64,000 bases of DNA, taken from positions 2,356,001-2,420,000 of the forward strand of contig NZ_CP092123.1 in assembly GCF_022343685.1 (NCBI RefSeq), given 5' to 3'. The notes beneath the pieces were generated by a model. It worked only from the letters and a program-made list of their open reading frames with translations, had not been told where the DNA came from and ran no database searches. The position numbers were made by a program, and so were the translations under genes. This DNA comes from Marinobacterium sediminicola (GTDB lineage Bacteria > Pseudomonadota > Gammaproteobacteria > Pseudomonadales > Balneatricaceae). Positions 16,649 to 40,184 of the stretch are shown here, piece by piece (the stretch's first letter is position 1; the number at the start of each line of letters is the position of its first letter).

Positions 16649-17362
16649 TCACGCCATTTCTGCCGGTTCGCAAAAAACATAGCCCCGGCCACGCACGGCC
16701 TTGATGGGGCTTGAACGAGAGTGCTTTTGGATTTTCTTGCGCAAGCGACTCATGATCTGCTCAAGACGACGCTCATCATACTGAAGGTAGTCCTCCCCCA
16801 AACTTTCAACCAGCCTGCTCCGCGGAGCATGGGCCGGATAAGAGTGGAAGAGTTGTTGAACAATACTACACTCGGCCTGCGTCAGCAGGATGGAGTGATC
16901 GGCATCCGGTACCAGCAACAGCTGCCTGACGGGATCTAACTGCCAATAATCCTCTGTCTGGCTTTCGCCTCTTCTATCAGAACTGTAAAGATCGAGCCTT
17001 CGAAGCAACGCCTTCAGGTGTGCAAGCAGCTCAGCAAACTCAAAGGGTTTCGTCAGGTATACATCAGCCCCTTTGTCGAGGCCATTGATACGATTATCAA
17101 GACTCGCCCTGGCGGTCAGCATGATAATGCCTATGTTGCTTTTACCGCTCACCAGCTCTTGCGCCACCTTAAAGCCGTCGCTGTCCGGAAGTCCGATATC
17201 AAGAATGACGACATCAAAAGGTATGCGTTTATGCTGATTGAGAAAAGGTGCGGCTTCACTGAAATCTTGCAGCTCGAAGCCTTCTTCTTCCAGCAGGAAG
17301 CTAAGCTCTTCTCGCAGATCCGCATTATCTTCCACCAATGCGATGCGGTGATATTTGTTCAT
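16649..17362 (-). CDS. OmpR-type response regulator linked to the large-protein export cluster
   Basis: Receiver plus winged-helix DNA-binding domain, 237 residues. The receiver has the acidic pair in LVEDNADLREE, the phospho-Asp in VVILDIGLPDSDGF, Thr in IIMLTARAS and Lys in VYLTKPFEF. The C-terminal part (LSRLRKK-type recognition helix, here EQIMSRLRKKIQKHSR, then IKAVRGRGYVF) is a typical trans_reg_C domain. Its start overlaps the histidine kinase stop by 4 bases (ATGA), so the two are a cognate pair. Being last in the minus-strand cluster, it likely regulates the export genes upstream; target sites are unknown. Confidence 0.92.
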   Translation of the reverse strand: MNKYHRIALVEDNADLREELSFLLEEEGFELQDFSEAAPFLNQHKRIPFDVVILDIGLPDSDGFKVAQELVSGKSNIGIIMLTARASLDNRINGLDKGADVYLTKPFEFAELLAHLKALLRRLDLYSSDRRGESQTEDYWQLDPVRQLLLVPDADHSILLTQAECSIVQQLFHSYPAHAPRSRLVESLGEDYLQYDERRLEQIMSRLRKKIQKHSRSSPIKAVRGRGYVFCEPAEMA

Positions 17363-19302
17363 TTTCCAAATCCTTGCAAACGAACACGAATCTCGGTGCC
17401 GGACTTGCCGGTTTCAACATCTATCCAGCCATTAAAACGCTCTACCGCTTCTTTAACGACAAAAAGCCCCAAACCCAAGCCGGGAACGGCGGCATTTTCA
17501 TTCGCCCGGAAATGACGATCAAACATATGTTCGCATACATATTGATCCATTCCCGGCCCCTTGTCTCGCACTATTAGTTCAAGATTATGCCCGCTTATGG
17601 ATATGTAAACGGAAACGTCAGTATCACCCGGGCTGTATTTGAGTGCGTTGTCGATCAGGTTGCGCATCAACACACCCAGAAACTCAGCCGGCATCAAACC
17701 GTTAAAGACAAGTGGCTGATCACTCCCGTGGATCTTGATACGCTCACGTGCAGCTGAGGGAAACTCGTTCAACACGTCAACGAGCACTGGAATCACGTCG
17801 TACTGCTGGGGCTTGGTGCCGGATGACTCAAACTCACCACTGCTTCGCAAAATACTCATCTGCAACAGCAGATTGATTCGAGTGACGGCATCTCGAATGC
17901 GCTGATAACGCTTGCCATGCTGCTCACCATCCGTGCGTTTGCTCTCCAGCTTTTGCAGCGACTGCGCCGAGGTATCGATCACCGCCAGAGGGGTCCGCAC
18001 TTCGTGTGAGAACATGTCCATGAATAGCTCATGGGATAAACGTAACGACCGTTCCAGACCCGCCTCCTTTCTGGATTCCTCTGCCGCTCGTTTTGCAGCC
18101 CGTATGAGTGCCTCGGACTTACGAACGGAAAACATCAGGATGAAGTGGAGAGACAACTGAAAAGACAGGATCATCAAGGGGGCAATATAGGTCGTTCCGA
18201 CCGTAACAGGCATATAGCCGATCGTGTAGAGGCAGTTTACCGCCACAAAAATACCGAAGATGAAGAAACCTCCCGCACGAAATCGCTGTTCCGAATCCAT
18301 CTGGCGCCAGCTCAACAGCAGGGGTACTGACACAACCAGCGGGAATGACGACACATAGGTGTTAACCACCGACATGGCAACGGCATATTGGTTCTGATAG
18401 GCAAATATCATCCCCGTTAATGCCAGGCCGATCCCGATCAGAAACAACCCATTGACCCAACGCGATCCAATGTATTGAAAGTTCAACATCCGCTGGAAAA
18501 ACACAAACGCCAACAGGCCGGTGAACAGCACGCTGAACTGCATCAGCAGATTTTGCTCGGCCTCAGTCATCCCGGGCACCAGGTCACGCATGAAGCCATT
18601 GCTGAACAATATCGTCACCAGCATGGAGGCTTCATAGGTCACGAAGTATATGAACAACGACCGCCTTAACCAGACACCGTTGAGCAGATTGATCAGCAAC
18701 ACCATGAGCAGGATTCCGATCAGAATACCCTCGCTCATGACACGGCCCTCGATCGCGGCATCGATTCGGTCCCCCGGGACCGCCTGTATCAACAGCACGG
18801 AGGTACTGCTGGTCTCCAGCCTCACCAGCAGTTCGACTGGGCCTTCCGGCAAACGGGTGCCCACAAAAGGCAAGCGGTGGTGCAAGTCATGCTCGGGATC
18901 TGCCACCAGGTCACCGGCTGACAACACCTGCAACAGCTCACCCTGCTGAATCACGTGATACTCAACACGATCGAGATAGACCGGACTGCTGAAGAAACCC
19001 CATAACTCAGGTGATGCCGGGCTACGCTCCAGCTGCACATACACCCAGAACACCGAAGTTGAATAGCCCTCACCCACACCATAGGACAGCTGCTTGAAAC
19101 GTCCGGCCCGTTGCGCATCCAACGCTTCTTCCCATGTCAGTTCATGATTGGGGTCTTCCAGTATGCTCAGCTGGCCTTTATCCAGAGCCAACATCTTCTG
19201 ATCCAATAACACCGGAGTGGCTGCGGCAGCAGAAAGCGACCCCATCAACAACAGCAGCACGGCAACCAGCCCGATGCCGGCTTTTTTCACTGAGACGATC
19301 AA
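17359..19302 (-). CDS. 7TMR-DISM sensor histidine kinase
   Basis: 647 residues. A signal peptide (about 1-28) precedes a periplasmic DISMED2-type beta domain (about 40-180) with FWVYVQLERSPASPELWGFF. Seven membrane helices follow (about 190-390), the 7TMR-DISM module thought to sense extracellular, often carbohydrate-like, ligands. The kinase part has the H box FSHEVRTPLAVIDTSAQSL, the N box NLIDNALKYSPGD, and G boxes RDKGPGMD and GLGLGLFVVKEAVERF. The start overlaps the upstream protease-adaptor gene by 4 bases (ATGA) and the stop overlaps the regulator by 4, so the sensor is translationally tied to the export genes. The signal is unknown. Confidence 0.92.
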   Translation of the reverse strand: MIVSVKKAGIGLVAVLLLLMGSLSAAAATPVLLDQKMLALDKGQLSILEDPNHELTWEEALDAQRAGRFKQLSYGVGEGYSTSVFWVYVQLERSPASPELWGFFSSPVYLDRVEYHVIQQGELLQVLSAGDLVADPEHDLHHRLPFVGTRLPEGPVELLVRLETSSTSVLLIQAVPGDRIDAAIEGRVMSEGILIGILLMVLLINLLNGVWLRRSLFIYFVTYEASMLVTILFSNGFMRDLVPGMTEAEQNLLMQFSVLFTGLLAFVFFQRMLNFQYIGSRWVNGLFLIGIGLALTGMIFAYQNQYAVAMSVVNTYVSSFPLVVSVPLLLSWRQMDSEQRFRAGGFFIFGIFVAVNCLYTIGYMPVTVGTTYIAPLMILSFQLSLHFILMFSVRKSEALIRAAKRAAEESRKEAGLERSLRLSHELFMDMFSHEVRTPLAVIDTSAQSLQKLESKRTDGEQHGKRYQRIRDAVTRINLLLQMSILRSSGEFESSGTKPQQYDVIPVLVDVLNEFPSAARERIKIHGSDQPLVFNGLMPAEFLGVLMRNLIDNALKYSPGDTDVSVYISISGHNLELIVRDKGPGMDQYVCEHMFDRHFRANENAAVPGLGLGLFVVKEAVERFNGWIDVETGKSGTEIRVRLQGFGK

Positions 19303-21410
19303 AACCCTGACTCTCGTATGAACAGTGCTACCACTCGCTCAAGCTGATAGAGCAGCGCGCTGCGGGAATCCCCTTCAACCACCATCATGCCCGTCATGCG
19401 TGTTCCTTGCAGTGAGTCGCTGATCGGCTCCTCAGGCATCAGCTGTATGCGGTAGTGAGCGGCCTCGGGAACCAGCCGTTCATCCTGACGCCTGACCGCC
19501 ACGGGTCCGCCGGCCTCGGAGCCCAGTTCGGGATAGGGCAATACCGGCACCGCGGTGATGTCGATTCGCGAAACACTGGCCGGAATAGCCGAATGTTCGC
19601 CATTGATGGCAATGAACATCCCCTGCTGCCCCACGGCCAGCAGGTTCAAGTCGCGCTCGTTCACCAGCCCCTCAAAAAGCATTCGCTCGGGCGCGATCAA
19701 TGTCATCAACGCCTGATCACGGCCGATCCATTGCCCCGATGCCAGGAGTTCACGATCACTGACCCGGCCACTGAATGGCGCTCGAACGGCCAGCATGCGC
19801 GCACGTTTTTCCAGCCCCTGTAACTGCTCATTGAGCTGTCGTCTGCGCTCCTGGTTCACCGCCTGGGCGGCCTTTTCTTCCAGAGACGCGCTCTGACGTG
19901 ACAACTTCAGCTCGACCAACTGCAGCTGGTCACGGGTCTGTGTCAGCTGTTGTTCCAGGTCCGGCGACGCCATCTCCAGCAGAACCTGACCGGCCTCCAC
20001 GCTGTCGCCGGCCTGTACGTAGACGGCCTTGATGCGGCCGTCTTCGGTTGCAAACAGCGTCTGGCTGGATTCTGCCCGCAGGACGGCAGGCACTTGAACG
20101 CTGGTCGAAAAGGGCAACAGCAACCCAAGCAGAACCAGCACCGGTAAAGACCAGCAGGCAATACGCGCAGGTGTCCAATTAAAATCAGCCCGGCGCTCTC
20201 GCCAGACCTGCAGTTCCTTGAAAATCGGCATCACAATGAACCAGAGTATTTCAACCACAAAAAGAATAATGCCCAGCACCTTGAAGAACAGGTGATAGAC
20301 CAGCAACGCAATCCCCAGAAACAGGAAAAAGCGGTACAGCCAGGTGCCCCAGGCATAGAGCGTCAACAGACGCGCTCGGCGGCGGGGCATGGGTTCAGGC
20401 AGCGGATCATCCAACCCCCATAGCCAACGCCGCAAACGCCAGCGTCCCAGGGCAAATGCACGCTGCTGCAGGTTCTCGACGCCCAACAGGTCGGAAAAGG
20501 CGTAATAGCCGTCAAAACGCAGAAAGGGGCTGATATTGACCAGTACCGACGTCACCCAACTGGTCGTGGCGACAAAGAACGCCGCACTGCGCAGCGCGCC
20601 ATCCGGCAGGATGCCCCACAGAAAAGTAGCCACCAGTGCAAGGTACAGCTCGGTCTTTACCCCGGCCGTGACGATCTGCAAACGCTGCCGACGCGAGCGC
20701 AGCTTCCAGGCATCCGTTGTATCCGTGTAGAGCACCGGAAACATGACAAGAAACGCGACCCCCATTGAGGCAACACGGCACCCCAACCGCTGTGAAACCA
20801 GGGCGTGGCCCAGCTCATGGGCGCTTTTCACCAGCACCAGTGTCAGGCCGTACAGCAACATCCCTTCGAGACTGAAAAAGTAGAGAAAAGTACTGCTGAA
20901 CGTGTCCCACTGCCGCAGGACCAGCACGCCACCCAGCAGCCCCATCAGCAGTAACAACCGATGCACACTGTTGCTGAACAACCAGTTCAGGCGCGGGCCG
21001 ACACGTTGCAGCCAGGGGTCCGGGCGTAACAACGGGATTCGAATGAACAGATAGTTGTGCAGCAACCACTGCCAGACGCTTTTTTGCTGCCCTTTGCGTT
21101 GACTCAGGAAGTGATCACAGGCCCCTTTTGATCGCGCCAGTACCAGGTTGTTGGCGATCAGAAAGTCGATGAAAGCCTTGATCTCAGCCTCCTCGTACGC
21201 CAGATCCCGGCCCGCCAGATGGGCCTGCATCTCTTCCAGTGTGTGCCCTGGCTGCCAATGACGGATGAGAGCCAGCGCATCCTCGGCCAGGGTAAAATAG
21301 CGATTGCGCACGCGGTCATGCAGCAGCCACCGTGGCGCGCCGTCTTCATCATGCGAGCCCGGCAGCAGCTTCAGATCCTGACGGATGGCCGGTAAGCGAA
21401 CCTCTACCAT
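19299..21410 (-). CDS. PqqD-like / M50 site-2-type metalloprotease / HlyD-like adaptor fusion
   Basis: About 703 membrane-bound residues combining three parts. Residues ~10-95 resemble a PqqD-like winged-helix (RNRYFTLAEDALALIRHW, then HTLEEMQAHL), a fold used by peptide-modifying systems to grip leader peptides. The membrane part carries the zinc-protease motif SAHELGHALV (HExxH near 198-202) and a second motif NISPFLRFDGYYAFSD whose Asp completes the M50 site, so it looks active. From about 415 on, a membrane helix is followed by an HlyD-like region with lipoyl halves (GRIKAVYVQAGDSVEAGQVL) and coiled coil. It overlaps the GAF-HlyD gene by 7 bases; a GTG at 21419 is an alternative start. 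I infer processing and/or export of the giant protein encoded upstream. Confidence 0.82.
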   Translation of the reverse strand: MVEVRLPAIRQDLKLLPGSHDEDGAPRWLLHDRVRNRYFTLAEDALALIRHWQPGHTLEEMQAHLAGRDLAYEEAEIKAFIDFLIANNLVLARSKGACDHFLSQRKGQQKSVWQWLLHNYLFIRIPLLRPDPWLQRVGPRLNWLFSNSVHRLLLLMGLLGGVLVLRQWDTFSSTFLYFFSLEGMLLYGLTLVLVKSAHELGHALVSQRLGCRVASMGVAFLVMFPVLYTDTTDAWKLRSRRQRLQIVTAGVKTELYLALVATFLWGILPDGALRSAAFFVATTSWVTSVLVNISPFLRFDGYYAFSDLLGVENLQQRAFALGRWRLRRWLWGLDDPLPEPMPRRRARLLTLYAWGTWLYRFFLFLGIALLVYHLFFKVLGIILFVVEILWFIVMPIFKELQVWRERRADFNWTPARIACWSLPVLVLLGLLLPFSTSVQVPAVLRAESSQTLFATEDGRIKAVYVQAGDSVEAGQVLLEMASPDLEQQLTQTRDQLQLVELKLSRQSASLEEKAAQAVNQERRRQLNEQLQGLEKRARMLAVRAPFSGRVSDRELLASGQWIGRDQALMTLIAPERMLFEGLVNERDLNLLAVGQQGMFIAINGEHSAIPASVSRIDITAVPVLPYPELGSEAGGPVAVRRQDERLVPEAAHYRIQLMPEEPISDSLQGTRMTGMMVVEGDSRSALLYQLERVVALFIRESGF

Positions 21411-22744
21411 CCCAGCCACTGCCTCAGTGACGTGATCGGGCGACGGAACAGATAAAAGAACAGGCTCACCCGGTCACCATACACCTTTGCCGTACCCCGC
21501 AAGCCGATACGTGGCGACAGCCGTTCACCGGGCTCGTCCAGCTGGGCGATCAGCCGATAGGCGAACTGCTGATCCGGTGTGGGTCTTGGGGTATAGCCTG
21601 CATGGCTGAGAATAGCCGACCAGGCGTTCAAGGGATCGTTATCCAAAAACACCCTCACCTCGGCACCGGGCAATAGCGTTATCGAGTCCTTAACCGGCAA
21701 CATCACCTCGAACTCCACCTGCTCGGGGTTGGCAACCAGCATGATCCGCTCCCCGACCCGCACGGGTCGCCCCTTCCAGTCATCCGGGTTGTCCAGCACG
21801 GCCACTCCCGGCTGTTCTGCCTTGATTGTTGACCGTTCGAGACGCTCACGGGCCAGTTGCCATTCAGCCTCCTTGAGCCTGACCTGTGCCTCCAGCTCGG
21901 CCAGTCGCGCCTTTTGCTTGGGGTCCATGAAACCGCTCTGCTGCACGGTTTTCAATTCGGCCTGAGCCACCGACAGCATCTGCCGGGCCACCGCTTCACG
22001 GCTGGCCAGCTCACTATCCTCAAGATACGCCAGGGGATCGCCGGGCTTGACGGTTTCATTGGGCTGCACCGCCACGCGCTTGATCGCGCCCTCCAATGGC
22101 GCCGCAATCACCAACGGATTTTTGGCAACGACCTCCACCGGAGCCAGTGTGCTCAGACGAACAGGCCATGCCATCAACACCACCAGCGCCGCAAGTGCCG
22201 CCCACAGGACTCTGCGCTGCCTGAGCCGCGACCACAGCCCCTTGAACGGCTGATGCCTGCGCAACGCAAACAGGGCATGACCGGCCGTTGCCGACAGGTG
22301 CTGGGCAATGCCGCGCTCTGCCTCGCTCCAGGCCTTGTCCCGAAGCAGTAGCAGAACGCCCACTGCCTCGTTATCACGCGCTTCCACCACCAAAGGCTGC
22401 CACAGCAGCTGGTCGGGCAGTTCCAGGGCTCGCCACTCGGCCGCCACCTCGGCGGGCAGGTCGGCCGGTCCTATGCATTGCTGGCCGGCATTGTCTGCGG
22501 CAACCACTGCCTTGCCCAGCCGTTCGGCCCAGCTGATGAAGGGAGAGGTGTAATCCACCGTCGGCAGGTCGGAAACGGCGACCACATTGAGTTGATTGAG
22601 GGCTTCACCTTCCAGGAGGATTGCCTGAGTGTACGGCAGACACTTGTGTGTCTGGTTAACCAGGGTATAAAACAACTGCGCAAGGCTGGATGCCTTGCGC
22701 AGTTGTTGCTCCAGCCCCAAAAGGGCCGCAACGGTTTCGCTCAC
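21404..22744 (-). CDS. GAF domain - membrane helix - HlyD-like adaptor protein
   Basis: 446 residues. The N-terminal ~150 residues look like a GAF domain (SSLAQLFYTLVNQTHKCLPY, then GVLLLLRDKAWSEAERGIAQ), predicted cytoplasmic. One membrane helix (VLWAALAALVVLMAWPV, about 178-195) leads to a periplasmic membrane-fusion part with two lipoyl-like halves (EGAIKRVAVQPNETVKPGDP), a coiled-coil hairpin (about 240-300) and a beta-barrel region. A cytoplasmic small-molecule-type sensor fused to an adaptor is unusual. The stop overlaps the protease-adaptor start; the start is 10 bases from the end of the giant gene. The stated functions come from domains only. Confidence 0.83.
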   Translation of the reverse strand: MSETVAALLGLEQQLRKASSLAQLFYTLVNQTHKCLPYTQAILLEGEALNQLNVVAVSDLPTVDYTSPFISWAERLGKAVVAADNAGQQCIGPADLPAEVAAEWRALELPDQLLWQPLVVEARDNEAVGVLLLLRDKAWSEAERGIAQHLSATAGHALFALRRHQPFKGLWSRLRQRRVLWAALAALVVLMAWPVRLSTLAPVEVVAKNPLVIAAPLEGAIKRVAVQPNETVKPGDPLAYLEDSELASREAVARQMLSVAQAELKTVQQSGFMDPKQKARLAELEAQVRLKEAEWQLARERLERSTIKAEQPGVAVLDNPDDWKGRPVRVGERIMLVANPEQVEFEVMLPVKDSITLLPGAEVRVFLDNDPLNAWSAILSHAGYTPRPTPDQQFAYRLIAQLDEPGERLSPRIGLRGTAKVYGDRVSLFFYLFRRPITSLRQWLGW

Positions 22745-22753
22745 AAAAACTCC

Positions 22754-25700
22754 TTATGCGGACTTCAACATCGCCATCAGACGTGTTCCATATTGGTCGC
22801 GATTCGCCAACTCGTTCTCCAGCTGCTCCGCGAAAGGTCTGAACCCGGACTCTTTCAGCTGCAGAGCATTGTTATCGCTAAGGTTATCACCGGTCTGCGG
22901 ATTAAACAGCTGGGGCAGATCAAGTTTCAGTTCAAGGACGCGCACAGTGCCATCGCTGCCAATTGCGGTGATGCGGATCACCACTTCCTGCTCACCCGCC
23001 GGGGGTTCGATCAGTTTTACCGAACCGGTGGCCGGATCGAGCGTGATCCACTCCGGCAGTGCTTCACCGTTGCCAAGGCTGGCGGTGTAGAACTGCGAAT
23101 TGGCATCAAGGCTGGTGTCTTGCACCACTACCAGCACCTCGCCCGCCGCCACTCGGTCGATCCCTACCACCTGCAACGACACCGTGCTGAACGCCTGCTG
23201 CTGGTCGTCACTGAACAGTACCTGGCCATCGCTGTTGACCTGCACATCCACCGAGGCGCGGGTGGTGGTGTTGCCATCGGTGTTGACCGACTGCACCACC
23301 AGCGCGCCCGGCTCGGCCATGATGATGATCTCATCGCCGCCCGTGCTGCCGCCCGTATCGCCGTCGCTCTCACTCTCAACACCGCTGCCGCTGGTGTCGA
23401 TTTCAGTGCCGCTGTCGTCACCGCCATCATCCATATAGCCACTGCCATCGGTGGGGTCACCGGTGCCACCTTCATCGATCACCCCCTCCGGCAGCTCGCC
23501 GCCACCCTCATCAGAGACGGTACCGGGATCATTGCTGGGGGGCTGGGGGGGCGGTGGTGTATCGCCACCGGGGTTGGCCTCTTCCTGTACCATCGCATTG
23601 ACCGTCAGCACGAAGCTGCGGGTGACACTGGCACCCTCGCTGTCCGTGGCGGTGAGGGTCACCGTAAACCGGCCCGGTTCAGACGGCTTGCCTTCAATCA
23701 CGCCGGTTTCAGGGTCATAGATCAGCCCTTTGGGCAGGCCGGTGATGGTGAAGTCGAGGTCTTCCCGACTCAACACGCTGTCTTTATCGCTGAACAGCGG
23801 CGACACATCCAGCCGATAGTCGCTGCTCATCAGAGTGATTGTCTCGTCATCGGTGAGCTGGACCGAGGTCGCCTCCGGCGCATCGTTGCTGCCAATCAAG
23901 GTGATGGTGACCACTTCGGAGGCGGTGGCACCATCGGTGTCCTCTACCGTGACCGTGTAGCTGAAGGTGACGGTGTCGCCGGCGTTGAGGAAGTCGAGAT
24001 CCGCAGCATCGAGTTGATAGTGCCAGGCCACCTGCCCGTTGTGCGGCAAGTCAGCACCACTGGTCGTGAACGCCGCGACCAGACGACTGGCCAGCCCCGC
24101 ATCCAAGCCATCGACGACACTGTTGTCGTTGCGCCGCCAGACCGGATCCTGATTGACGCTAAAGGTGATCTGCTGGGTATTGTTGAGGTCGTGATCGGTA
24201 AAGCTCACCACGCCGATCTGCACCAGACTCTGCGCCGCCGCATCGACCGCCTCACTGAACGGCTCCGCGGCCGTGACCGCAATCGTTGGGGTATCGTTGC
24301 TGCCATTGATGGTAAAGGTGATCACTGCATCTGCGGCGGCATCCTGACTGTCCCGTGCGGTGACGGTGTAGCTGAAGGTGAGGGTCTCGCCCTTGGCGAG
24401 GAAGTCGAGATCCGCTCCGGTGACGTTGTAACGCCAATCGACGCTGCTCGGTGCCGCCGCATCCTGGGTGGTCGCAATCGAGAAACCGCTCTCCAATAAG
24501 GTGACCAGTGCTGCATCCAGAGTGCCGCCACTCCACGCCATATCCGAATTTGAGGCAAAGGTGATATCGACCAGATCGGTGGTGTCGAGATCTCGGAACG
24601 CCACCACGCCGGTTTCAGTCAGCGCCTGCGCGCTGGAGTCACCCGCCACTTCGCTCAACGCTTCGGCGGCCTCTACGGTGATGGTCGGTGCATCATTAGT
24701 GCCAGTAATAGTGAACAGGACCTGCTGAGTCACGGGGACGTCAGCACTGTCGGTGGCGGTAACGGTGTAGCTGAAGGTGAGGGTTTCACCGCTGGCGAGG
24801 AAGTCGAGGTCGATACCGGCCACATCGTAAGACCAATCCACACTTCCCGGTGCCTCAGCGTTAAGAGTATCCGCAATGGTGAAGCCATTGATCAGCGCGG
24901 CCGCTACACCCGTATCCAGCGGCTCGGCAGTGGTGGCACCACTCCAGCTAATATCGCCGTTATCGGCAAAGGTGATATCGATCCGGTCGTTGGTATCGAG
25001 ATCCCCAAAGTTGACCACACCACTGTCACTCAACACCTGTGTGCTGGAGTCACCCGCCACTTCGGTGATCGCCTCGGCGGCCTCTACCGAGAGGGTCGGC
25101 GCATCGTTGGTGCCGGTGAGGGTAACGCGGAGGGTATCCGTGCTCTCAACACCCTGCTCGTCGGTCAGGGTGAAGGTGTAGCTGAAGGTGATGGTCTCAC
25201 CCTTGGCCAGGAAATCGAGGTTCGCATCGGTGACACTGTAACTCCAGGCAATTGTGCCCGGTGCCGCCGCACTGCTGGTGGTCGGAATCGATAGCCCCGC
25301 TACCAGAGCGGCGGCGAGATCCGTGTCCAGAGTACCGCCACTCCAGTCGATATCCTCATTGCTCACAAACGTGATATCGATCAGATCGGTCGTGTCCAGA
25401 TCCGCAAATTCAACCGTGCCACTCTCTGTCAGGGGCTGTGCACTGGAGTCACCGACCACTTCGCTCAACGCCTCGGCGGCTTCAACGCTGATGGTCGGTG
25501 CATCGTTAGTGCCGGTGATGGTGAAGGTCACCTGCTGGGTGGCGGTGGCGTCGGCACTGTCGGTAGCCGTCACGGTGTAGCCGAAGGTGAGAGTTTCGCC
25601 CGCGGCCAGAAAGTCGAGATTGATACTGGCCACGTCGAAGGACCACTCCAGACTGCTGCCCGGCAGCGCATCAATCGTTTCGGGAATGGAGAAACCCGCA

Positions 25701-26563
25701 ATCAGCGCGTCGTTAATCGCCCCGCTCAGCGGCTCCTCGGCAGTGGCGCCGCTCCAGTCCACCGCGCCATCGCTGGCAAAGGTGATGTCAATGCGGTCGG
25801 TCGTGTCGAGGTCGTTGAAAACCACCACGCCGCTGTCACTCAAGGCCTGGCCACTGGAGTCGCCCTCCACTTCGGTGATCCCGTCGGCGGCCTCCAGCGC
25901 CAGAATCGGCGCATCGTTGGTGCCGGTGATGGTCAGGGTGAGGAATTTGGAGGTCGAGGCACCGGCAAGGTCTGTTGCACTGATCTCGTACGAGAGGGTT
26001 AGGGTCTCACCCTCCGCAAGGAAATCGAGGTCAGCCCCCTGCATATTGTACTGCCAGTTGGCAGTGCCAGCGGCCGTCGCTGACGTCGGCAGAGTGGTGG
26101 TGAAGCCGCTAAGCAAATGAGCGGCCTGAACGCTGTCCAACGATCCACCACTCCAAACAACATTGGATGAAGAGCGTTGTAACGACAGGGTATCGCCGGA
26201 AGCGTAGTCAAAATCGACATCATTGAAGCTGATTTTTCCGCTGCTGCTCACCCCGCTTGCGGCCTCGTCCATGGCAATGGAGGCACCGGCATCGGCGGTA
26301 ACCAGCAGCTCAGGAGCATCATTGACGGGTGTCACCCGAAAGGTCAGTTCATAAAAACTCTCCGGGTAGTGATTGGCCAGATCATAGTGCCACCACTCCT
26401 CTGGTCTGAGCATATAACTAAGACCAGAAACACTTCGATCGTCTACAAAAAATTTGACCGTAACCTCGCCATTGAAATTCTCATTCGGGATAAACTTCAC
26501 CCCACCTGAATCCATATCCCAGGTTGTGAAGTCATAAAACGACCCTAACTCAACCAACCCAAC
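22754..26563 (-). pseudogene. C-terminal part of giant VCBS-repeat surface protein, cut off by an IS
   Basis: About 1267 residues of open frame, continuing the gene that begins at 28626. The frame has no native start: it runs upstream into the IS and hits a stop there. A short N-terminal stretch is followed by six VCBS-type repeats of ~137 residues, each ending with LDFLAxGETLTFSYTVTA and TITGTNDAP. Then comes a cadherin/Ig-like domain (GLPKGLIYDPETGVIEGKP), a Pro/Gly/Asp-rich linker and a C-terminal region ending YGTRLMAMLKSA. I see no RTX nonapeptides, LPXTG or PEP-CTERM. Removing the IS would rejoin both parts in frame (...FFLQDG + LVELGSF...) to give ~1560 residues. Likely surface adhesin or matrix protein. 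Confidence 0.85.
23880..26320 (-). repeat. Six tandem ~411-bp units encoding VCBS repeats
   Basis: The plus-strand signature around gcatcgttggtgccggtga recurs near 25910, 25500, 25095, 24690, 24290 and 23885, with spacing of about 400-411 bp; a more diverged unit starts near 26310. Units 3 to 5 are most alike in protein and DNA, pointing to recent duplication or gene conversion. Such arrays are prone to copy-number change and misassembly. Confidence 0.85.
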
Positions 26564-26634: not shown

Positions 26635-26901
26635 ATGAAGAAGTCCCGATACACCGACAGCCAGATCATGGCGATACTGAAACAAGCGGAAGCAGGTACC
26701 CCAGTTCCCGAACTATGTCGTGAACATGGGATGAGCAGCGCCACATTTTATAAGTGGCGGGCGAAATACGGCGGCATGGATGCTTCGTTGATGGCTCGGC
26801 TGAAAGAGCTTGAAGATGAAAACCGCCGCCTGAAGAAAATGTATGCTGAAGAGCGGCTGAAGGCCGAGATCGTCCAGGAAGCACTGCAAAAAAAGTGGTG
26901 A
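26635..26901 (+). CDS. IS3-family transposase OrfA
   Basis: 88 residues with a helix-turn-helix that binds the IS ends ([20 protein letters not shown], then [20 protein letters not shown]) and a leucine-zipper-like C-terminus ([20 protein letters not shown]). This layout is characteristic of the IS407 group. A good ribosome site (GGAGGTTCTGC) precedes the ATG. The frame ends just after an A AAA AAG heptamer, so a fraction of ribosomes should shift -1 into OrfB to make the complete OrfAB transposase. Confidence 0.93.
26889..26895 (+). other. Programmed -1 frameshift site A_AAA_AAG
   Basis: In the OrfA frame the codons read CAA AAA AAG TGG TGA, so the heptamer A AAA AAG is correctly phased for tandem slippage. 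OrfB is in the -1 frame and overlaps OrfA by 7 bases. This is the usual IS3-family arrangement for making the OrfAB fusion. Confidence 0.8.
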
Positions 26902-27710
26902 AGCCGTCTCGGCGCAAGGAGATGGCACAGACCTATGTTGCTTCCCGTGGCGTCAGTATCCGGCTTGCCTGTGCTGCCTTTGGTATCAGCGAATCCTGCT
27001 ACCGGTACCAACCCAAGCTGTCATCGGAGAATGCTGAGATTGCAGATTGGTTGATCCGCCTGACTGAACAGGATTCAGACTGGGGCTTTGGTATTTGCTT
27101 TGACTACCTGCGTAATGTGAAAGGCTTCGGCTGGAACCATAAGCGCGTATACCGTATCTACTGTGAACTTGCATTGAATCTGCGCATACGGCCTCGGCGG
27201 CGCCTAAAGCGCCATAAGCCGGAGCCGTTGAAACAGCCCCTGCGACGCAACCAGGTGTGGTCGATCGACTTCATGCACGATCAGCTGTCGGATGGCAGAA
27301 GCTACCGGCTGCTCAATGTGATCGATGACTACCGGCGAGAAGGACTGGCAATAGAAGCAGGCTTCTCTCTGCCATCCATGCGAGTGATACGCACCCTGTC
27401 TCAGTTGATTGAGTGGAGGGGAAAACCATCGCACATTCGCTGTGACAACGGCCCAGAATTCATCAGTCACGAATTCACCAACTGGGCTCGTAAACATGAC
27501 ATCCGGATTGAGTATATTCAACCCGGCAAGCCTCAACAGAACGCTTACATCGAGCGTCACAATCGAACGCTCCGCTACAGCTGGGTCAGTAAGCATCTAT
27601 TCGAAACACTGGAGGACGTTCAGGATTATGCAACGCAGTGGCTCTGGTTTTACAATCATGAGCGGCCGCACAAAGCCAATGGTGGCCAGCCACCACTAAA
27701 AGTGGCTTAG
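26895..27710 (+). CDS. IS3-family transposase OrfB (DDE integrase domain)
   Basis: 271 residues. An N-terminal HTH_21-like part ([20 protein letters not shown]) is followed by the rve integrase core: first Asp in [14 protein letters not shown], second Asp in [11 protein letters not shown], and the Glu in [15 protein letters not shown] with the usual 35-residue spacing. The DDE set is intact and the C-terminus [15 protein letters not shown] is typical, so the element is probably still active. It is most likely produced as an OrfAB fusion by frameshifting; an independent GTG start at 26895 lacks a convincing ribosome site. Confidence 0.93.
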
Positions 27711-27744: not shown

Positions 27745-28626
27745 TTACCCATCTTGGAGAAAGAAATTATCGGCCGAGGTACGGCCGCTCACATCAAACT
27801 TAATATACCCTTCACGATAGTCATTACCGCCAGAAAAGGTGATACCAGAGTCGATCACTATTGGCTGACCATTTTCAACATAGGTCACCTCTGAAACGGA
27901 TGCGTTCACCGTTATTGCCAACACCCCTTCAAAACTAACCGCCGCCAGCTCATCGGTCTCAATCAAGCCACTTTCGGCCTCCAGCTCCCAGTCACCGCCC
28001 AGACCCGCCGAACCGGTGAGGTCTTCCGAAGCCGCCACATCGGCCTGGGTCAGTTCAGCCACAGAGTCGATAAAACTCTGGCCTTCACTGTCTGCCCCCA
28101 CGTAGCAGCCGTAGAGCATCAGGTCGCCGTCTTCCGTCAGGGATTCACCCAGCGCGGACAAAAGTTGAGCATTGGCATCCAGGTTTTGACCATTCAGCGT
28201 CAGGCTACCCAGCTTCAACTCACCCACATCCCCATGCGAAAACAGGTGGATCGCATCAATGCCGGTCTGCCCCTGCAAGGCTGCGACGATCTGCTCCAGA
28301 CCGTTTTCGCTGCCATCAATCAGGATGACTTCGACGTTGTCACCCAGCCCATCGATCAGGCTCTGATAGTCGTCAACCGAGGTATCGACAAAGGCAACCT
28401 CGCGGCGGTTGCCGGGTTCGTTTCCGGTCGGCGCAGGCGCGGCAAAGTGAACGCTCTGATCCGCGGACTCGGTATGCACCGCTTCATCCTGATAGGCCAC
28501 ATCGGTGGTCATCTCAGCGGTGGTGGCAACAGCGGCACCATCCAGCAGGATACGGGGTTCCAACGCCGTAATCAGCGGCTTGCGACGAAAACGAATCGGG
28601 GAGGTGGGGGTCGGTTTTTTCATCAT
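27745..28626 (-). pseudogene. N-terminal part of giant surface protein: LEPR-type signal and DUF4347 domain
   Basis: 293 residues ending at a TAA supplied by the IS. The basic N-terminus leads to LEPRILLDGAA (residues 22-32), the LEPR-XLL-type motif found at the start of many large repeat proteins and suspected to be a sorting signal. There is no classical Sec signal peptide. Residues ~75-220 form a DUF4347 domain with IHLFSHGDVGELKLG (H131) and DLMLYGCYVG (C174); a His in SHG and a Cys after a hydrophobic strand is the layout of caspase/gingipain-like clan CD proteases. The ribosome site AAGGGAT lies before the ATG. It follows the adaptor gene by 50 bp in the same operon. Protease activity is inference. 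Confidence 0.85.
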
Positions 28627-28676: not shown

Positions 28677-29405
28677 TTACTGAGCATTGGGCGCGTTAAA
28701 AACCGCTGTTGCGCTCATGCCGGGTATCAGTTGTGTATCCTGAGACAAACTTGCCCGCAGCAGGACGGTCTGGCTGACAGCGTCGATTGCCGGAATAATG
28801 GCACTAACCTGAGCGACAGCTGCCTCATCGTGCCCATCCACTTGCAGTTGCAACGACTGACCAGTTTCAAGCCAGCTCAACCAGCCGGCAGGCACCACAA
28901 TTTCAGCTTCAAGCTGGCGGTCGCCGACAATCTCGATCAGCTCCTGTTGCTGACGGATATTTTCATGCGCATTGACTCTGACGCCGACTACGCGGCCATC
29001 CCAGGGCGCCTTGATCGTGCAACGCTGTGTGTTGAGTCTGGCAATATTCAATTCTGCCAGGGACTGGGCATATTCCGACTGGGCCAGCGCCACATCAACC
29101 TCACCGATGGAGTTGAAGGAGCGAAGCTCTCGTGCGTTGTCCCGCTTGATTTTGGCGGCACGAACTTCGGCTGATACCTTCTCGGCCTGAGCCTTGTAGA
29201 GCGCACAATCAAGCTCGACCAGTGGGTCCCCCTTGGCAAAGGCCTCACCGGCACGAACCGGCAGACGTTCAACCCTGGCAGCCAACTCACCGGACAGGAC
29301 GGCCCGGTCCAACGCCTTGATGACGGCTCTGGCTTCATACTCAGCCAGAGCCGTTGCCGGCAGCAGCAACGCCACTGCCAGCGAACTCAGGAGCCGACGG
29401 GACAT
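28677..29405 (-). CDS. Periplasmic membrane-fusion (HlyD/RND-type) adaptor without membrane anchor
   Basis: 242 residues with a cleavable-looking signal (SLAVALLLPATALAEYEA, end near 21) and no later membrane helix or lipobox, so it should be soluble in the periplasm. The lipoyl-like halves are LAARVERLPVRAGEAFAKGD and TIKAPWDGRVVGVRVNAHEN, separated by a short coiled coil (~70-115); a beta-barrel part follows. It is small for the family. Its start shares one base with the stop of the TolC-like gene (TGATG), pointing to a joint complex with it. It probably bridges the TolC-like channel and the HlyD parts of the two downstream membrane proteins. Confidence 0.85.
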   Translation of the reverse strand: MSRRLLSSLAVALLLPATALAEYEARAVIKALDRAVLSGELAARVERLPVRAGEAFAKGDPLVELDCALYKAQAEKVSAEVRAAKIKRDNARELRSFNSIGEVDVALAQSEYAQSLAELNIARLNTQRCTIKAPWDGRVVGVRVNAHENIRQQQELIEIVGDRQLEAEIVVPAGWLSWLETGQSLQLQVDGHDEAAVAQVSAIIPAIDAVSQTVLLRASLSQDTQLIPGMSATAVFNAPNAQ

Positions 29406-31021
29406 CAGCTGACCTCACCTTCGGCGTCAGCTTCGACAGCGCCTTCAACCTCGGCTTCGGCTGCAACTTCAGCTTCGGCGGCTGCCTGTTCGGTTTCCAG
29501 CTCTTCCTGCTGCTGAGTCACCTGTTCCATCTGGCCGCTCTGCCACTGAGCAAAGCGCTCACCAATGCGTTCACTCAACTCTTGCAGAGAGACCTGGTTG
29601 TAGTCTTCAGGCAGCAGATCCATGCCCATGGTCACGTAAATGCGGCCATAGCTGTTCTGCAAATCTGCATAGGCCACATCGCGGCGCAGCTCGGCCAGCA
29701 CGGTGTTGAGTGACTCGCGGATCAAGTCCAGCTTGGAAGTCCGCTTGAGACGGGCACTGTTGCGCGTCTGTTCGCTGATACGCTCGGCCACACTCAGGTA
29801 TTCCCCGGCCAGATCAAAGCTTTTACGGGCCTGTTCGTAGCGGATGCGGGACAGGTGCACCTGCGTCAGCACTGCCATGGAGGCTGCCAGACGCTGTTCA
29901 TTGGCCAGCACCTCACGGGTTTTCGCCATGCGACGCTCGGCACCGATTTTAAATACATCGAACAGGTTCCAGCTGATCTGGGCTCCCATGCTGGTCCAGT
30001 CCTGATTCAGCAGGTACTCATTGCTGTCTTCGTATGCGCCCGCCGTCAGGTTGATGCCCGGCAGCAGTCCGAGCATTGCGGCTTTGGTTTCGGCTGCAGA
30101 GATACGCTTCTGGTAATGGGTTTCAACCAGTTCCGGGCGCTGCTGCAGCGCCAGCTCTTCCATCTGTTCCAGCTCAACGGAGAGTTCCGGCACGGTGAAG
30201 GCAGGGCTATCGACATCGGCCAGGGCAAATACCGTACCCGGCTTAAGCCCCATCAGCGCCGCCAGCTCGGTCTTGGCACCCATCAGATCCTGACGCAGTG
30301 ATTGCAAGGCACGCAGAATATCCAGCAACTCACGCTGATAGTACAGAGCCTCCAGTGGTGACTGCAGACGCTTGGTTTCAACCTGACGCGAGTCTTTCAG
30401 CGCATCACTCGCCTGGTCGATCAGCGGATTGATTTTGGTCAGCAAACGCTCGGCCGACACGGCACGCCAGTAGGCCGCGCGCACATCCTGAGTGATGTTG
30501 TGCACCACCTTGCGCTCACGTTCCTTGGTGATCAGGTAGCGGTCGGCATGCTGTTTGGCACGCACGTATGAGAGGCCAAAGTCGAGGATATTCCAGGTAA
30601 ACGCGATATCCTGGGTATCACGTTCCTTGTCCTGAGACACCGAGTAAGAGGGATTCAGCGGTAGAGCATCCGGCTCGCCATCGGTAAAGCTTACACTGGC
30701 AGAAGCCGCATACTCACTACGCTTGGAATACCCGGCTGAAGCGGTCAGATTGGGCAGCATCTCATGCTGAGCCAGCTCAACCTGTCCCTGCGCCAACGCA
30801 GCTTCCAGCGCTTTGAGCTTCTTGTCGCGGTTGTTCAGCACAGCACGTGCAATGGCCTCGTCCAGCGAAACGGCAGACTCAAGAGCCTGCTCCTGAGCCA
30901 ACAGCTGGATATCGGCCTGGGCGGCGGCACTGATGTACTGTTGTGTAATGGTCTGAGGAGTAACGGAACAGCCACTGATGATGGCAGCGATAGCTGTTGC
31001 AAGTAGGGGCTTCTTGTACAT
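29405..31021 (-). CDS. TolC-family outer-membrane channel lipoprotein
   Basis: 538 residues. The signal peptide ends in a lipobox IISGC (Cys18), so it is probably lipid-anchored, as in OprM-type channels. Two OEP repeats are visible: SLDEAIARAVLNNRDKKLKA with TWNILDFGLSYVRAKQHADR, and QRPELVETHYQKRISAAETK with SWNLFDVFKIGAERRMAKTR; the G-x-x-LP (MLPNLTASAGY, LLPGINLTAG) segments match too. The last ~45 residues are an unusual Glu/Ala-rich acidic tail, not part of the channel fold, perhaps periplasmic. As first gene of the cluster it supplies the exit duct. The 235-bp gap upstream, shared with mgtE, must hold the promoters. Confidence 0.9.
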   Translation of the reverse strand: MYKKPLLATAIAAIISGCSVTPQTITQQYISAAAQADIQLLAQEQALESAVSLDEAIARAVLNNRDKKLKALEAALAQGQVELAQHEMLPNLTASAGYSKRSEYAASASVSFTDGEPDALPLNPSYSVSQDKERDTQDIAFTWNILDFGLSYVRAKQHADRYLITKERERKVVHNITQDVRAAYWRAVSAERLLTKINPLIDQASDALKDSRQVETKRLQSPLEALYYQRELLDILRALQSLRQDLMGAKTELAALMGLKPGTVFALADVDSPAFTVPELSVELEQMEELALQQRPELVETHYQKRISAAETKAAMLGLLPGINLTAGAYEDSNEYLLNQDWTSMGAQISWNLFDVFKIGAERRMAKTREVLANEQRLAASMAVLTQVHLSRIRYEQARKSFDLAGEYLSVAERISEQTRNSARLKRTSKLDLIRESLNTVLAELRRDVAYADLQNSYGRIYVTMGMDLLPEDYNQVSLQELSERIGERFAQWQSGQMEQVTQQQEELETEQAAAEAEVAAEAEVEGAVEADAEGEVS

Positions 31022-37224: not shown

Positions 37225-37641
37225 ATGGAGACAAAAACCAAGCTCATCAGCGGACAAAAAGGCTTTACGATCATTGAGATTTTGATTGTTGTCGCCATTT
37301 TGGGGATTCTGGCATCTATCGCTTACCCTTCCTACCTTGACTACGTCAGAGAAAGCCGACGTCTCGACGCGACCAATGCGCTCCTGAATGCGCAAGCCGC
37401 ACAAGAAAAGCACCGAATGACGAATGCAACCTATGCGAGTACGGCTTCGGCCATGGGAGTCGGCAGCAGCTCCTCAGAAGGTCATTACACCCTGTCAGTC
37501 TCAGGTGCAACGAGTACCGGCTACACGCTAACGGCGACCGCAACAGGCACTCAGGCATCGGACACTGCCTGCACGAATATCACCTTAAAGGTTGATAAAG
37601 GCGACGTGACCAAGTCACCCTCGACATGCTGGAAAAAATAG
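37225..37641 (+). CDS. pilE: Type IV minor pilin, PilE-like
   Basis: 138 residues with a short basic leader and the prepilin cleavage site [19 protein letters not shown]; Glu5 is present. The C-terminal half contains a Cys pair (DTACTN and PSTCWKK) like the D-region of minor pilins. Similar PilE proteins have a length near 140 residues. It is the first gene of a five-gene cluster of pilin-like proteins read in the same direction. In Pseudomonas pilE comes last in the cluster and follows pilY1; here it is first. Confidence 0.85.
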
Positions 37642-37643
37642 TT

Positions 37644-38162
37644 ATGGAACAGACTTTGTCTCAACAGCAGGAAGCGGGCAAGTGTATTCAGTCGGGCTTT
37701 ACACTTGTCGAAGTTCTGGTCGTGATTGCGATCATCGGCATTCTGGCGATGATCGCAATCCCTTCGTACTCTGACAGTATTGACCGTCAGCGCATCAAGT
37801 CTGCCGCTGAAACCCTGGCGGCAGACTTGCGCTGGGCAAAAGCCGAATCCTCCAGACGCAACACCAATATCACTGTCACCTTTACCACCGGTGCTTCCTG
37901 GTCTTACACCATCCAGGCGAACAAAGCGGATGGTACTAAAGAGACACTCCGCACAGTGAATAACGTCGATTTTGTTAACGTCTCGGTCAATCAAACCACC
38001 TTTGGTTCAAACGACTTTGAAATTGACTACATCCGAGGAACCGTGGGCGATAACGGCAGCGTAGTTTTTAAAACCAGCCGCGGAAACACCGCCACGGTCA
38101 CCGTAAGCGCTTTGGGCAGAGTCCGAATTTGTGGATTTGGAGGGTATCCGGCATGCAGCTAA
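37644..38162 (+). CDS. fimT: Type IV minor pilin, FimT/GspH-like
   Basis: 172 residues with leader cleavage at QSG-FTLVEVLVVIAIIGIL and Glu5. The following part, IPSYSDSIDRQRIKSAAETLAADLRWAKAES, is typical of GspH/FimT. It ends with a disulfide-type pair, RICGFGGYPACS. The ATG at 37644 is two bases after the pilE stop; a start six codons earlier would overlap. Minor pilins of this class prime pilus assembly and, for FimT, can bind DNA during natural uptake; that role is inference here. Confidence 0.85.
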   Translation: MEQTLSQQQEAGKCIQSGFTLVEVLVVIAIIGILAMIAIPSYSDSIDRQRIKSAAETLAADLRWAKAESSRRNTNITVTFTTGASWSYTIQANKADGTKETLRTVNNVDFVNVSVNQTTFGSNDFEIDYIRGTVGDNGSVVFKTSRGNTATVTVSALGRVRICGFGGYPACS

Positions 38163-38908
38163 CCCATACATGGAAGTCCCAGCAAGGCCTGACGCTGGTA
38201 GAGGTAATGGTGGCGATGGCGATTGGCATCTTCCTGCTCGGCGCAGGAGGGGCCGCCTTCATCAGCGCGATGAACACCCAGACCGAAAACCTCCAGCTCA
38301 CCCGGCTCAACCAGGATATGCGGACCCTGCTGGACATCATGAGCAAGGACATACGCCGCAGTGGTTTTTTGACCTCCAAGCCCCATCTCAGCAGCAACTC
38401 GACACACCTGAAGCAAAACCCTTTCTTCAGTACGGATAATGACATCAAAGCAATCGACAATACGTGCTTTTTGTACGCCTATAACCGCCATGATACTGAT
38501 CCCGTTTCCGTTTCAACCTCGGACCGTTTTGGATTCAAGCTCGTTACTGCCGATGGAGAATCAGGCAAAATCATGATGCGCAAGTCGGCTGACAACAACA
38601 GCAATTGCACAGACGGCAGCTGGGAAACCATCACCGAACCTGAAGTCGACATCACCGAACTGAAATTCAGTATCAGCACATCCGGGGTCAACCCCACCTC
38701 CTTACTGGACAGCGAAGGCGTGCTGACCGGGGAAAACAGCTGCACCGCCGGCAGCGCCTGCGCCAGCTGCACCTCAGGAGAGCCCTGCATTCAGATCAGG
38801 AGTGTCGACATTACCCTGACTGCTCGACTGGCAGCCGATCACACGGTGACCCAATCCATGAAGCGCACGGTACGCATACGTAACGACAAATACATCGATG
38901 CATTTTAA
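38153..38908 (+). CDS. pilW: Type IV minor pilin PilW-like
   Basis: 251 residues with the cleavage site QQG-LTLVEVMVAMAIGIFL and Glu5, then RLNQDMRTLLDIMSKDIRRSGF, the PilW signature. The C-terminal half holds a cysteine-rich loop (SCTAGSACASCTSGEPC) likely to be disulfide-linked. The ATG at 38153 follows GGAGGG and overlaps the fimT stop by 10 bases. PilW forms part of the initiating pilus-tip complex. Confidence 0.88.
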   Translation: MQLTHTWKSQQGLTLVEVMVAMAIGIFLLGAGGAAFISAMNTQTENLQLTRLNQDMRTLLDIMSKDIRRSGFLTSKPHLSSNSTHLKQNPFFSTDNDIKAIDNTCFLYAYNRHDTDPVSVSTSDRFGFKLVTADGESGKIMMRKSADNNSNCTDGSWETITEPEVDITELKFSISTSGVNPTSLLDSEGVLTGENSCTAGSACASCTSGEPCIQIRSVDITLTARLAADHTVTQSMKRTVRIRNDKYIDAF

Positions 38909-38927
38909 GCAAGGCACGGAGCACAAG

Positions 38928-40184
38928 ATGTTCAGAGACGATAAGCACTCGGTGACACACAAACAAAGAGGGGTCGCCACCCTCGTTGTGGTGATTTCGC
39001 TGATCATCATCATGGCAGTGATGGCCTTGACCGTTGCCAACAGCGGCATCATGGATCAGCGCACGACCGGCAGTGACATACGCGCACGAGAGGCCCATGA
39101 AGCTGCCGAAGCGGGGCTGGAGTATGCCGTAGCCTGGGCCAACAGCATCCGCATTCCGGACGTTCCGGTACTGCCTGGCGTCCCTGGCAGCACTCAGCTG
39201 ACATGCGATGGCGGTACCGATGACCCCTATGGCTGTCCTCCCAGCCTGACCACCATTACAGGCTCAACAACCAATGAGACTTACCAGTACACCCTGACCT
39301 ACACCGTCACCACTGGAGCCGGCACCAAGCTGGTCAGGATCGAATCAGATGCCTACAGCACCGCTGACGCAAGTACGGTGGCACACGCTGAGGTTTATTT
39401 GCAGCAAGTCCCCCTGGGCCAGGGCTCACCTGAAACGACTCCGGTCGTAGTCGATGGAGCCTTCGGCGATGAGATCGTGGGTGGCGGTGACATACTCACT
39501 ATCACCTCCACCAGCACCGCGATTGCCAGCAGCGCAGGTGCGGACGAGATTAACGAAGGCCACCTGGAACAGCGCATTTGGACCGACCTTGACGGTGATG
39601 GCGAAGTCGACAACATGGAAATAAAAGTCAAAGTCGAACCTTTCAAAAAGGGAGATTTTGACTGCAGCAGCTATTCCTCTCACTGCGCCTGGAACCACAC
39701 CTTCCAGGGCGAACTGCCTTTTGAGGATGCTGTTGAATATGCAACAGCCGCCGGCAATGTATTCACCAATGATATGCCCTGTGGCCCACCCGACCCCTCA
39801 AAGCCCGCGATTTATATTCTTAAGAACACTGGACCCATTGGTTCGGCTGACCTCAGCAACCCGGGGTGCAAGGATTCTAAGATCATTGGCTCCTTGACTG
39901 CACCGGTTGCCATCATCGTTCCCGAGAGCTATGGCTGCCCCCCCTTTTCAGGCGGTCTGAGTATATACGGTTACTTCTACATCGAGAATGAAACGGCATG
40001 CGACGCTTCCGGCTGGGGTGGCGCCAAGGTCTACGGCTCGGCGATTTTTGAAGGCCCAGTCACCAAGCTGACATCCGGTACAGAGTTCATCGAGATGGAC
40101 TGGGGAGACTCTGTCGGCAATACGCTGAACCTGCCCGTTGATTACGCCAATGCAATTCCTGGCACCTGGAGGGACTATGAATAA
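38928..40184 (+). CDS. pilX: Pilus assembly protein PilX-like
   Basis: 418 residues, long for PilX. The N-terminus QRG-VATLVVVISLIIIMAVMA is prepilin-like, but the fifth mature residue is Val rather than Glu, as in GspK/PilX-type tip subunits. TTGSDIRAREAHEAAEAGLEYAV is the PilX N-terminal signature. The rest is beta-rich with several Cys. The ATG at 38928 has GGAGC upstream; an in-frame ATG 10 codons earlier overlaps pilW. The unusual length suggests an added C-terminal domain, perhaps a tip adhesin domain replacing PilY1 function. Confidence 0.8.
   Translation: MFRDDKHSVTHKQRGVATLVVVISLIIIMAVMALTVANSGIMDQRTTGSDIRAREAHEAAEAGLEYAVAWANSIRIPDVPVLPGVPGSTQLTCDGGTDDPYGCPPSLTTITGSTTNETYQYTLTYTVTTGAGTKLVRIESDAYSTADASTVAHAEVYLQQVPLGQGSPETTPVVVDGAFGDEIVGGGDILTITSTSTAIASSAGADEINEGHLEQRIWTDLDGDGEVDNMEIKVKVEPFKKGDFDCSSYSSHCAWNHTFQGELPFEDAVEYATAAGNVFTNDMPCGPPDPSKPAIYILKNTGPIGSADLSNPGCKDSKIIGSLTAPVAIIVPESYGCPPFSGGLSIYGYFYIENETACDASGWGGAKVYGSAIFEGPVTKLTSGTEFIEMDWGDSVGNTLNLPVDYANAIPGTWRDYE

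Follow-up and report, generated by a model that had tools for sequence, protein, structure and literature searches.

What is the task of a single protein that joins a peptide-binding fold, an intramembrane protease and a periplasmic adaptor, and that is encoded beside a giant repeat protein? This question is raised by a stretch of 64,000 nucleotides from Marinobacterium sediminicola (contig NZ_CP092123.1, positions 2,356,001 to 2,420,000), hereafter called the window, in which one gene encodes a fusion of a PqqD-like domain, a site-2 (M50) protease and an HlyD adaptor. The fusion is inherited beside giants that have one leader in common, and it is therefore probably the core of a leader-reading export machine. 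More exactly, we consider it reasonably probable that the fusion forms the inner-membrane core of a machine that lacks an ATP-binding cassette (ABC) exporter and serves giant surface proteins selected by an N-terminal LExR leader.

Three domains in one polypeptide

An earlier sequence-only reading of the same DNA had placed the open reading frame (ORF) at 19299-21410. The ORF exists, but the strand had been missed: it runs on the minus strand from a GTG start at 21419 to 19299, and 21410 is an internal ATG three codons later. On the plus strand, the interval 19299-21419 contains many stops. The fusion of three domains in one polypeptide was confirmed, and its features are as follows.

19299..21419, minus strand: PqqD/RRE, M50 (site-2) protease and HlyD adaptor fusion, 706 amino acids (aa)
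21135..21392, minus strand: predicted PqqD-like domain or recognition element (RRE) of ribosomally synthesized and post-translationally modified peptides (RiPPs), about residues 10-95, from the AlphaFold model and Foldseek
20805..20819, minus strand: HELGH zinc site, residues 201-205; H201, E202 and H205 invariant in homologues
20508..20537, minus strand: second catalytic motif N-x-x-P-x4-D-G (NISPFLRFDG), residues 295-304; N295, P298 and D303 invariant
19362..20111, minus strand: HlyD/MacA-type periplasmic adaptor domain, about residues 437-686 (Pfam HlyD_3/HlyD_D23; Foldseek MacA/MexA)

Two of the three profiles proposed in the sequence-only reading matched. Pfam gave Peptidase_M50 (29.8 bits, cut-off 27.2) and two HlyD domains, but the window protein scored under the PqqD cut-off, which was exceeded by its paralogue at a second cluster of the same genome (locus B; 28.5 bits, cut-off 23.4) and by 4 of the 32 fusion family members. 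The PqqD profile was also run against PDB sequences, where the best match, the RRE of TfuB1 (E=0.57), was not significant by itself, and a fold comparison was therefore used. Residues 1-118 were modelled by AlphaFold from a 56-sequence alignment, with a predicted local distance difference test score (pLDDT) of 80.8, and compared with PDB by Foldseek. The modelled domain fits the winged-helix fold of three strands and three helices, and its 11 best PDB matches were all RRE/PqqD folds or RRE-containing RiPP proteins, including a CteB-type sactisynthase, PqqD, TfuB1 and TbiB1 with leader peptides, and TigE (probability 0.89-1.00, with modest or weak E values of 0.007-0.14). These matches suggest that the predicted RRE/PqqD fold is more than chance, and agree with the claim that the first ~95 residues resemble a leader-binding domain.

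The HELGH site is intact and invariant, as had been claimed, but the second motif is N-x-x-P-x4-D-G and not N-P-x4-DG. The HExxH and the distal N/P-D-G zinc ligand motif, which in site-2 proteases (MEROPS M50) lie in membrane segments, are both present. His201, Glu202, His205, Asn295 and Asp303 were invariant across 55 homologues, and these five residues together with Pro298 were invariant in a wider 32-sequence set, many members of which are only ~20% identical to the window protein. HExxH was present in all 104 long family ORFs examined and the strict second motif in 86, with variants in the rest. These residues bear on the suggestion, made for a SecA-type locus, that the M50 protein acts as a pore (Kamneva, Poudel and Ward 2015; PMC4452313). 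The ~seven or eight hydrophobic segments of the fusion would suit such a role, but catalytic residues that are all invariant even between ~20% identical sequences are not expected of a bare scaffold; we consider it very improbable that M50 serves chiefly as a pore or scaffold in the membrane, with proteolysis secondary.

The C-terminal part is the periplasmic adaptor that had been proposed. It matches Pfam HlyD_3 (2.5e-16), and in the full-length model (pLDDT 86.8) it resembles MacA/MexA, with MacA best at 3.6e-14; the barrel-sandwich (lipoyl) and HlyD domains of the HlyD/membrane fusion protein adaptors are both present. All three domains of the sequence-only reading are supported.

The giant proteins and their leader

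The sequence-only reading had also named the giant upstream protein, with its LEPRILLDGAA motif, as a possible ligand. Considering the distribution of the two genes, this partnership holds well beyond the window, although the window copy of the giant is in two fragments. Among 274 genomes of the class, the fusion gene was present in 17 of the 19 that encode LEPR proteins (P=1.6e-14); among 349 genomes of the phylum, 39 of the 40 with an LEPR-XLL leader had an RRE-M50-HlyD gene (P=6e-26). Where the LEPR gene and the fusion gene share one contig, they are no more than 15 kb apart for 34 of 39 leader genes, and most lie within 6 kb. Over all loci, LExR within the first 150 residues was found in 22 large ORFs beside the clusters versus 1 of 1,239 other ORFs, and even this single ORF is a giant in truncated form. 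Giants also adjoin the fusions that diverge most (190-330 bits to the window protein); three of these giants have a visible N-terminus and begin KLEQRVVLDAAAV, KLEERVVLDAAV and KLENRIVLDAAAV. Three LEPR-XLL matches stood without a detected fusion gene (G213:C57, G076:C348 and G472:C126); that of G076 is on a short contig, the G472 genome is 86% complete, and for the 7,373-aa LEPR-XLL ORF of G213, which may be a false match, the 20 kb upstream (L200) contain no export cluster. Leaders of a similar kind are common in planctomycetes.

When GTDB genomes were scanned, 374 relatives were found, and the 80 best loci were used for cluster analysis. The cluster was kept in most of them, across many proteobacterial families, Nitrospirales and Desulfobacterota. 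These neighbourhoods bear on the reading that the system matures and exports a small modified peptide and not a giant. RREs belong to RiPP systems, and the best NCBIfam match of the fusion is a daptide intramembrane protease (148.3 bits, cut-off 300); against this, the clusters showed neither a RiPP-modifying enzyme nor a small precursor, and what recurs beside the fusion is a giant gene that bears the leader. We regard a RiPP system as highly improbable.

In the window, the cluster lies on one strand (minus) in the order TolC, HlyD1, giant, GAF-like-HlyD, fusion and kinase/regulator pair.

29405..31021, minus strand: TolC-family outer membrane channel, 538 aa (Pfam OEP 2.7e-40)
28677..29405, minus strand: first adaptor, HlyD1, 242 aa, with an apparent signal peptide (Pfam HlyD_3 2.8e-20; RND_mfp over cut-off)
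27745..28626, minus strand: N-terminal fragment of the giant protein, LEPR leader and DUF4347 (PF14252 6.4e-54; NF012209)
28531..28563, minus strand: LEPRILLDGAA leader motif (NF012209 19.8 bits, cut-off 17)
26635..27710, plus strand: IS3-family insertion with two transposase ORFs, splitting the giant gene (NF033516 222 bits, over cut-off)
22754..26557, minus strand: C-terminal fragment of the giant VCBS-repeat protein, with the conserved C-terminal tail
21404..22744, minus strand: second adaptor, 446 aa, with a weak GAF-like N-terminus, one transmembrane segment and an HlyD domain
17359..19302, minus strand: 7TMR-DISM sensor histidine kinase, probable co-transcribed regulator (Pfam)
16649..17362, minus strand: OmpR-type response regulator (Pfam)

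The GAF domain, weak here, is clear in the locus B paralogue of the second adaptor (1.4e-10). The IS3-family element runs opposite to the giant LEPR/DUF4347/VCBS gene and splits it; therefore, the window copy of the substrate is broken. The gene is uninterrupted in relatives including L023, L028 and L030. Further from the cluster, 37225-40184 holds a series of genes for type IV pilin-like minor pilins, whose N-termini are of the prepilin type.

The genome holds three such clusters, and in each of them the fusion copy adjoins its own LExR giant. Locus A consists of TolC, HlyD1, a 2,744-aa giant, HlyD2 and the fusion; locus B (L016-L019, G000:C1:2447518-2503366) comprises an AMIN/TolC-like protein, a 10,900-aa giant, a two-partner pair, a DUF3467 protein, GAF-HlyD2, the fusion, an accessory SecA (676 aa) and HlyD. 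The two-partner secretion pair (695 aa and 3,763 aa) and the DUF3467 protein stand between the giant and the adaptors, and DUF3467 also occurs in L140, L141 and L145. Against the NF012209 (LEPR-XLL) cut-off of 17, the giant of locus B scored 32.8 bits near its N-terminus and the variant of locus A 12.1, below the cut-off. Behind the leader of the window giant, DUF4347 (27952-28398) shows SHG and YGC blocks that recall the cysteine peptidases of clan CD, and the locus A giant has an EELGH block at this place; judged by these motifs, each of the two domains might process itself.

The leaders fall short of signal peptides in hydrophobicity. The median of the best 12-residue hydropathy was 1.53 for giant leaders versus 2.21 for HlyD1 signal peptides, and only 3 of 26 leaders exceeded 2.0; by this crude measure, which is no dedicated predictor, the leaders lack the hydrophobic core of canonical Sec signals. 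An extra reader therefore makes sense. At the other end of the giants, those of the SecA-free branch described below share a tail: [FLAY]xxQ[LIV] was found within the last 60 residues in 49 of 56 versus 114 of 923 control ORFs. The tail has F/L-x-x-Q-L ~20-40 residues from the end, e.g., at window 22754-22950. A second, C-terminal signal is thus possible, which would fit a different reading of the fusion: the leader, lodged in the machine, would hold the exported giant at the surface until M50 cuts it later, as LapG does with LapA, under the control of the GAF-like domain or the two-component system. On this release-switch reading, the tail could be the actual export signal. The giants are VCBS/Ig-repeat adhesin-like proteins, the partner adaptor carries the GAF-like domain and a sensor kinase/regulator pair stands beside the window cluster, all of which would suit a switch. 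However, the pair occurs only in the closest relatives (among the loci compared, the kinase was at the matching place in L023, L027 and L028 only), no LapD/LapG-like genes were seen, and what the RRE fold is known to guide is the processing of leaders in maturation, not retention. We judge such a switch unlikely.

Two branches and the question of the motor

The sequence-only reading had assigned recognition, cutting and the handing of the product to TolC to one protein. The clusters point to more than one protein: with a dedicated TolC, two further adaptors, no ABC motor, and SecA in a sister branch, the fusion is rather the putative inner-membrane piece of a five-gene machine. These parts had been missed, as had the C-terminal tail of the giants and the interruption of the window copy. 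An attempt to define one TolC-docking tip motif (R-x3-L-x6-S/T) for the adaptors was abandoned, as it was clear only in HlyD1_B and the pattern gave too many spurious matches.

Of the parts of type I secretion, the HlyD adaptor and the TolC channel were found; an ABC exporter as inner-membrane motor was linked to neither the clusters of the 80 best loci nor the plasmid cassettes read. The ORFs flagged as a hidden ABC exporter in L159 and L160 turned out to be Uup-type ABC-F housekeeping proteins. Could an unlinked ABC exporter nevertheless be the motor, with the fusion acting only as leader peptidase? Type I secretion typically combines TolC and HlyD components with giant repeat proteins, and the C-terminal tail of the giants is conserved. 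This explanation is made very improbable by the clusters without ABC exporter, by plasmid cassettes that move without one, and by the B-type clusters, which have SecA instead.

The clusters fall into two branches. In the W/A-type branch, to which the window belongs, the leader reads ALEPRxxFD[GA]A or close to it. In the B-type branch it reads LEPRxLLSAD, and the fusion is divergent and usually stands beside an accessory SecA. Within loci, leader class and machine type went together: all 19 D-class leaders occurred with W/A-type machines and all 4 S/A-class leaders with B-type machines, and the split holds even within the one M. sediminicola genome. This pairing is expected if the fusion, and not only the motor, reads the leader.

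The accessory SecAs (~570-730 aa) were found at B-type loci of about 16 genomes, mostly of different families. They keep the motor motifs, with a few variants, and miss the C-terminal third of SecA. That of locus B (L016 8268-10298, minus strand, 676 aa) has SecA_DEAD, cross-linking and P-loop domains, and its relatives end at the matching place; the only other SecA in the genome is the housekeeping one. No accessory SecA was found at the window locus or in genomes with only the W/A-type, each of which has a single SecA, and an accessory SecA as a general requirement was therefore rejected. In Methylobacter tundripaludum, a housekeeping-type secA (907 aa, with zinc-binding tail; L091 12358-15081) lies directly downstream of the fusion gene; it was seen at a single locus of the 80, perhaps by chance.

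The SecA-free branch also travels. The D-type fusion was found on plasmids of E. coli, Citrobacter, Kosakonia, Azospirillum and Variovorax, and in the four plasmids read, five genes stood together: giant, TolC, HlyD1, HlyD2 and fusion. The giant of E. coli is 4,459 aa long and begins ALESRQLFDGAA; the Variovorax giant spans 48.7 kb and begins ALEARYMFDAAAV. The cassette was present in 24 of 5,426 complete E. coli genomes, mostly plasmid-borne. The E. coli cassette (L206 2322-22073) is flanked by IS5-like and IS1-like elements, and it contains no SecA or ABC gene. That no motor gene travels with the cassette suggests, without proving, that the SecA of the host is used.

A candidate export route and its relation to known systems

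Protein families and co-inheritance suggest the following route. The LExR leader of the giant would be bound in the cytosol by the PqqD/RRE domain, as the fold and the leader/machine pairing indicate, and the chain would most likely be taken across the inner membrane by Sec or a motor of the SecA family, with the accessory SecA serving the sister branch and presumably the housekeeping SecA that of the window. The M50 site, with its invariant catalytic residues, would remove the leader within the membrane. The fused HlyD, the GAF-like-HlyD and HlyD1 would join the dedicated TolC, through which the giant would leave the cell.

Several observations weigh against this route. The branch of the window encodes no energy source. 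The broken substrate gene means that the window copy of the machine may be idle or may serve another giant. The sampled loci are related, so their counts are not independent events. No strong LEPR-XLL match was found in 22 of the 39 class genomes with a fusion, although the profile (NF012209), being short, suits the S-class best and does not pick up the D-class. Finally, the leader is weakly hydrophobic, so that its entry into a membrane protease is not obvious. The interpretation given in the sequence-only reading is partly supported. We propose tentatively, and with rather less assurance than for the core function, that the system is a distinct route for giants of 2,000 to >16,000 residues, which would be selected by LExR through an RRE joined in one protein with an intramembrane protease and a TolC adaptor. 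Of its two branches, each with a matching leader class, one would have a truncated SecA of its own and the other would run on host machinery and spread by plasmids.

The closest described system is the secondary SecA_DEAD, type I-related locus reported from several phyla, with M50, HlyD, GAF and outer-membrane components and no ABC exporter, in which SecA was suggested as the ATPase and the broader role was called completely unknown (Kamneva, Poudel and Ward 2015; PMC4452313). Like it, the clusters have M50-HlyD, GAF-HlyD, HlyD and sometimes an outer membrane channel; locus B and the B-type loci are this 2015 system. In contrast, the branch of the window lacks a SecA gene and includes a TolC of its own. 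The 2015 paper gives no substrate, leader or PqqD/RRE domain, and its main text does not mention LEPR, giant proteins or PqqD. The substrate assignment, the RRE domain, the SecA-free branch (also on E. coli plasmids) and the leader/machine pairing would thus be new relative to it. As in the type I secretion of giant adhesins (LapBCE, SiiCDF), TolC and HlyD family adaptors would serve giant repeat proteins; the window machine differs in having no ABC exporter, an N-terminal LExR leader and three adaptors, one of them fused to protease and RRE.

RiPP systems offer parallels for the fusion itself. In lasso peptides, leader peptidases come with an RRE, either fused to them or as a separate partner, and the M50 protease EpeP is believed to cleave as well as export (PMC10885120). 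The fusion would resemble these RRE-guided lasso peptidases in that an RRE guides a protease to a leader, and it resembles the daptide M50 enzyme (NF041824) in the order of a PqqD-like region and M50, the daptide profile covering residues 30-397. It scores, however, far below the family cut-offs of both the daptide and the epipeptide (EpeP/YydH-LiaK, NF058609) enzymes, and the system differs from RiPP leader peptidases by the extra HlyD domain, the proposed giant-protein substrates and the lack of modification enzymes. The giants carry the N-terminal motif of the LEPR-XLL domain proteins (NF012209) or its D-class variant. An LEPR-XLL giant of ~8,000 aa was noted in a Vibrio genome paper, without exporter (PMC10868602), and no exporter was assigned to this motif in the open-licence papers found; a later description elsewhere is possible.

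This analysis joins the 2015 SecA locus with the LEPR-XLL giants, which are among the largest bacterial proteins. It offers a concrete and testable trio, with LExR as the candidate signal, the RRE as its reader and M50 as its cutter. Since the SecA-free branch is a five-gene cassette on E. coli plasmids, the question can move to well-handled hosts.

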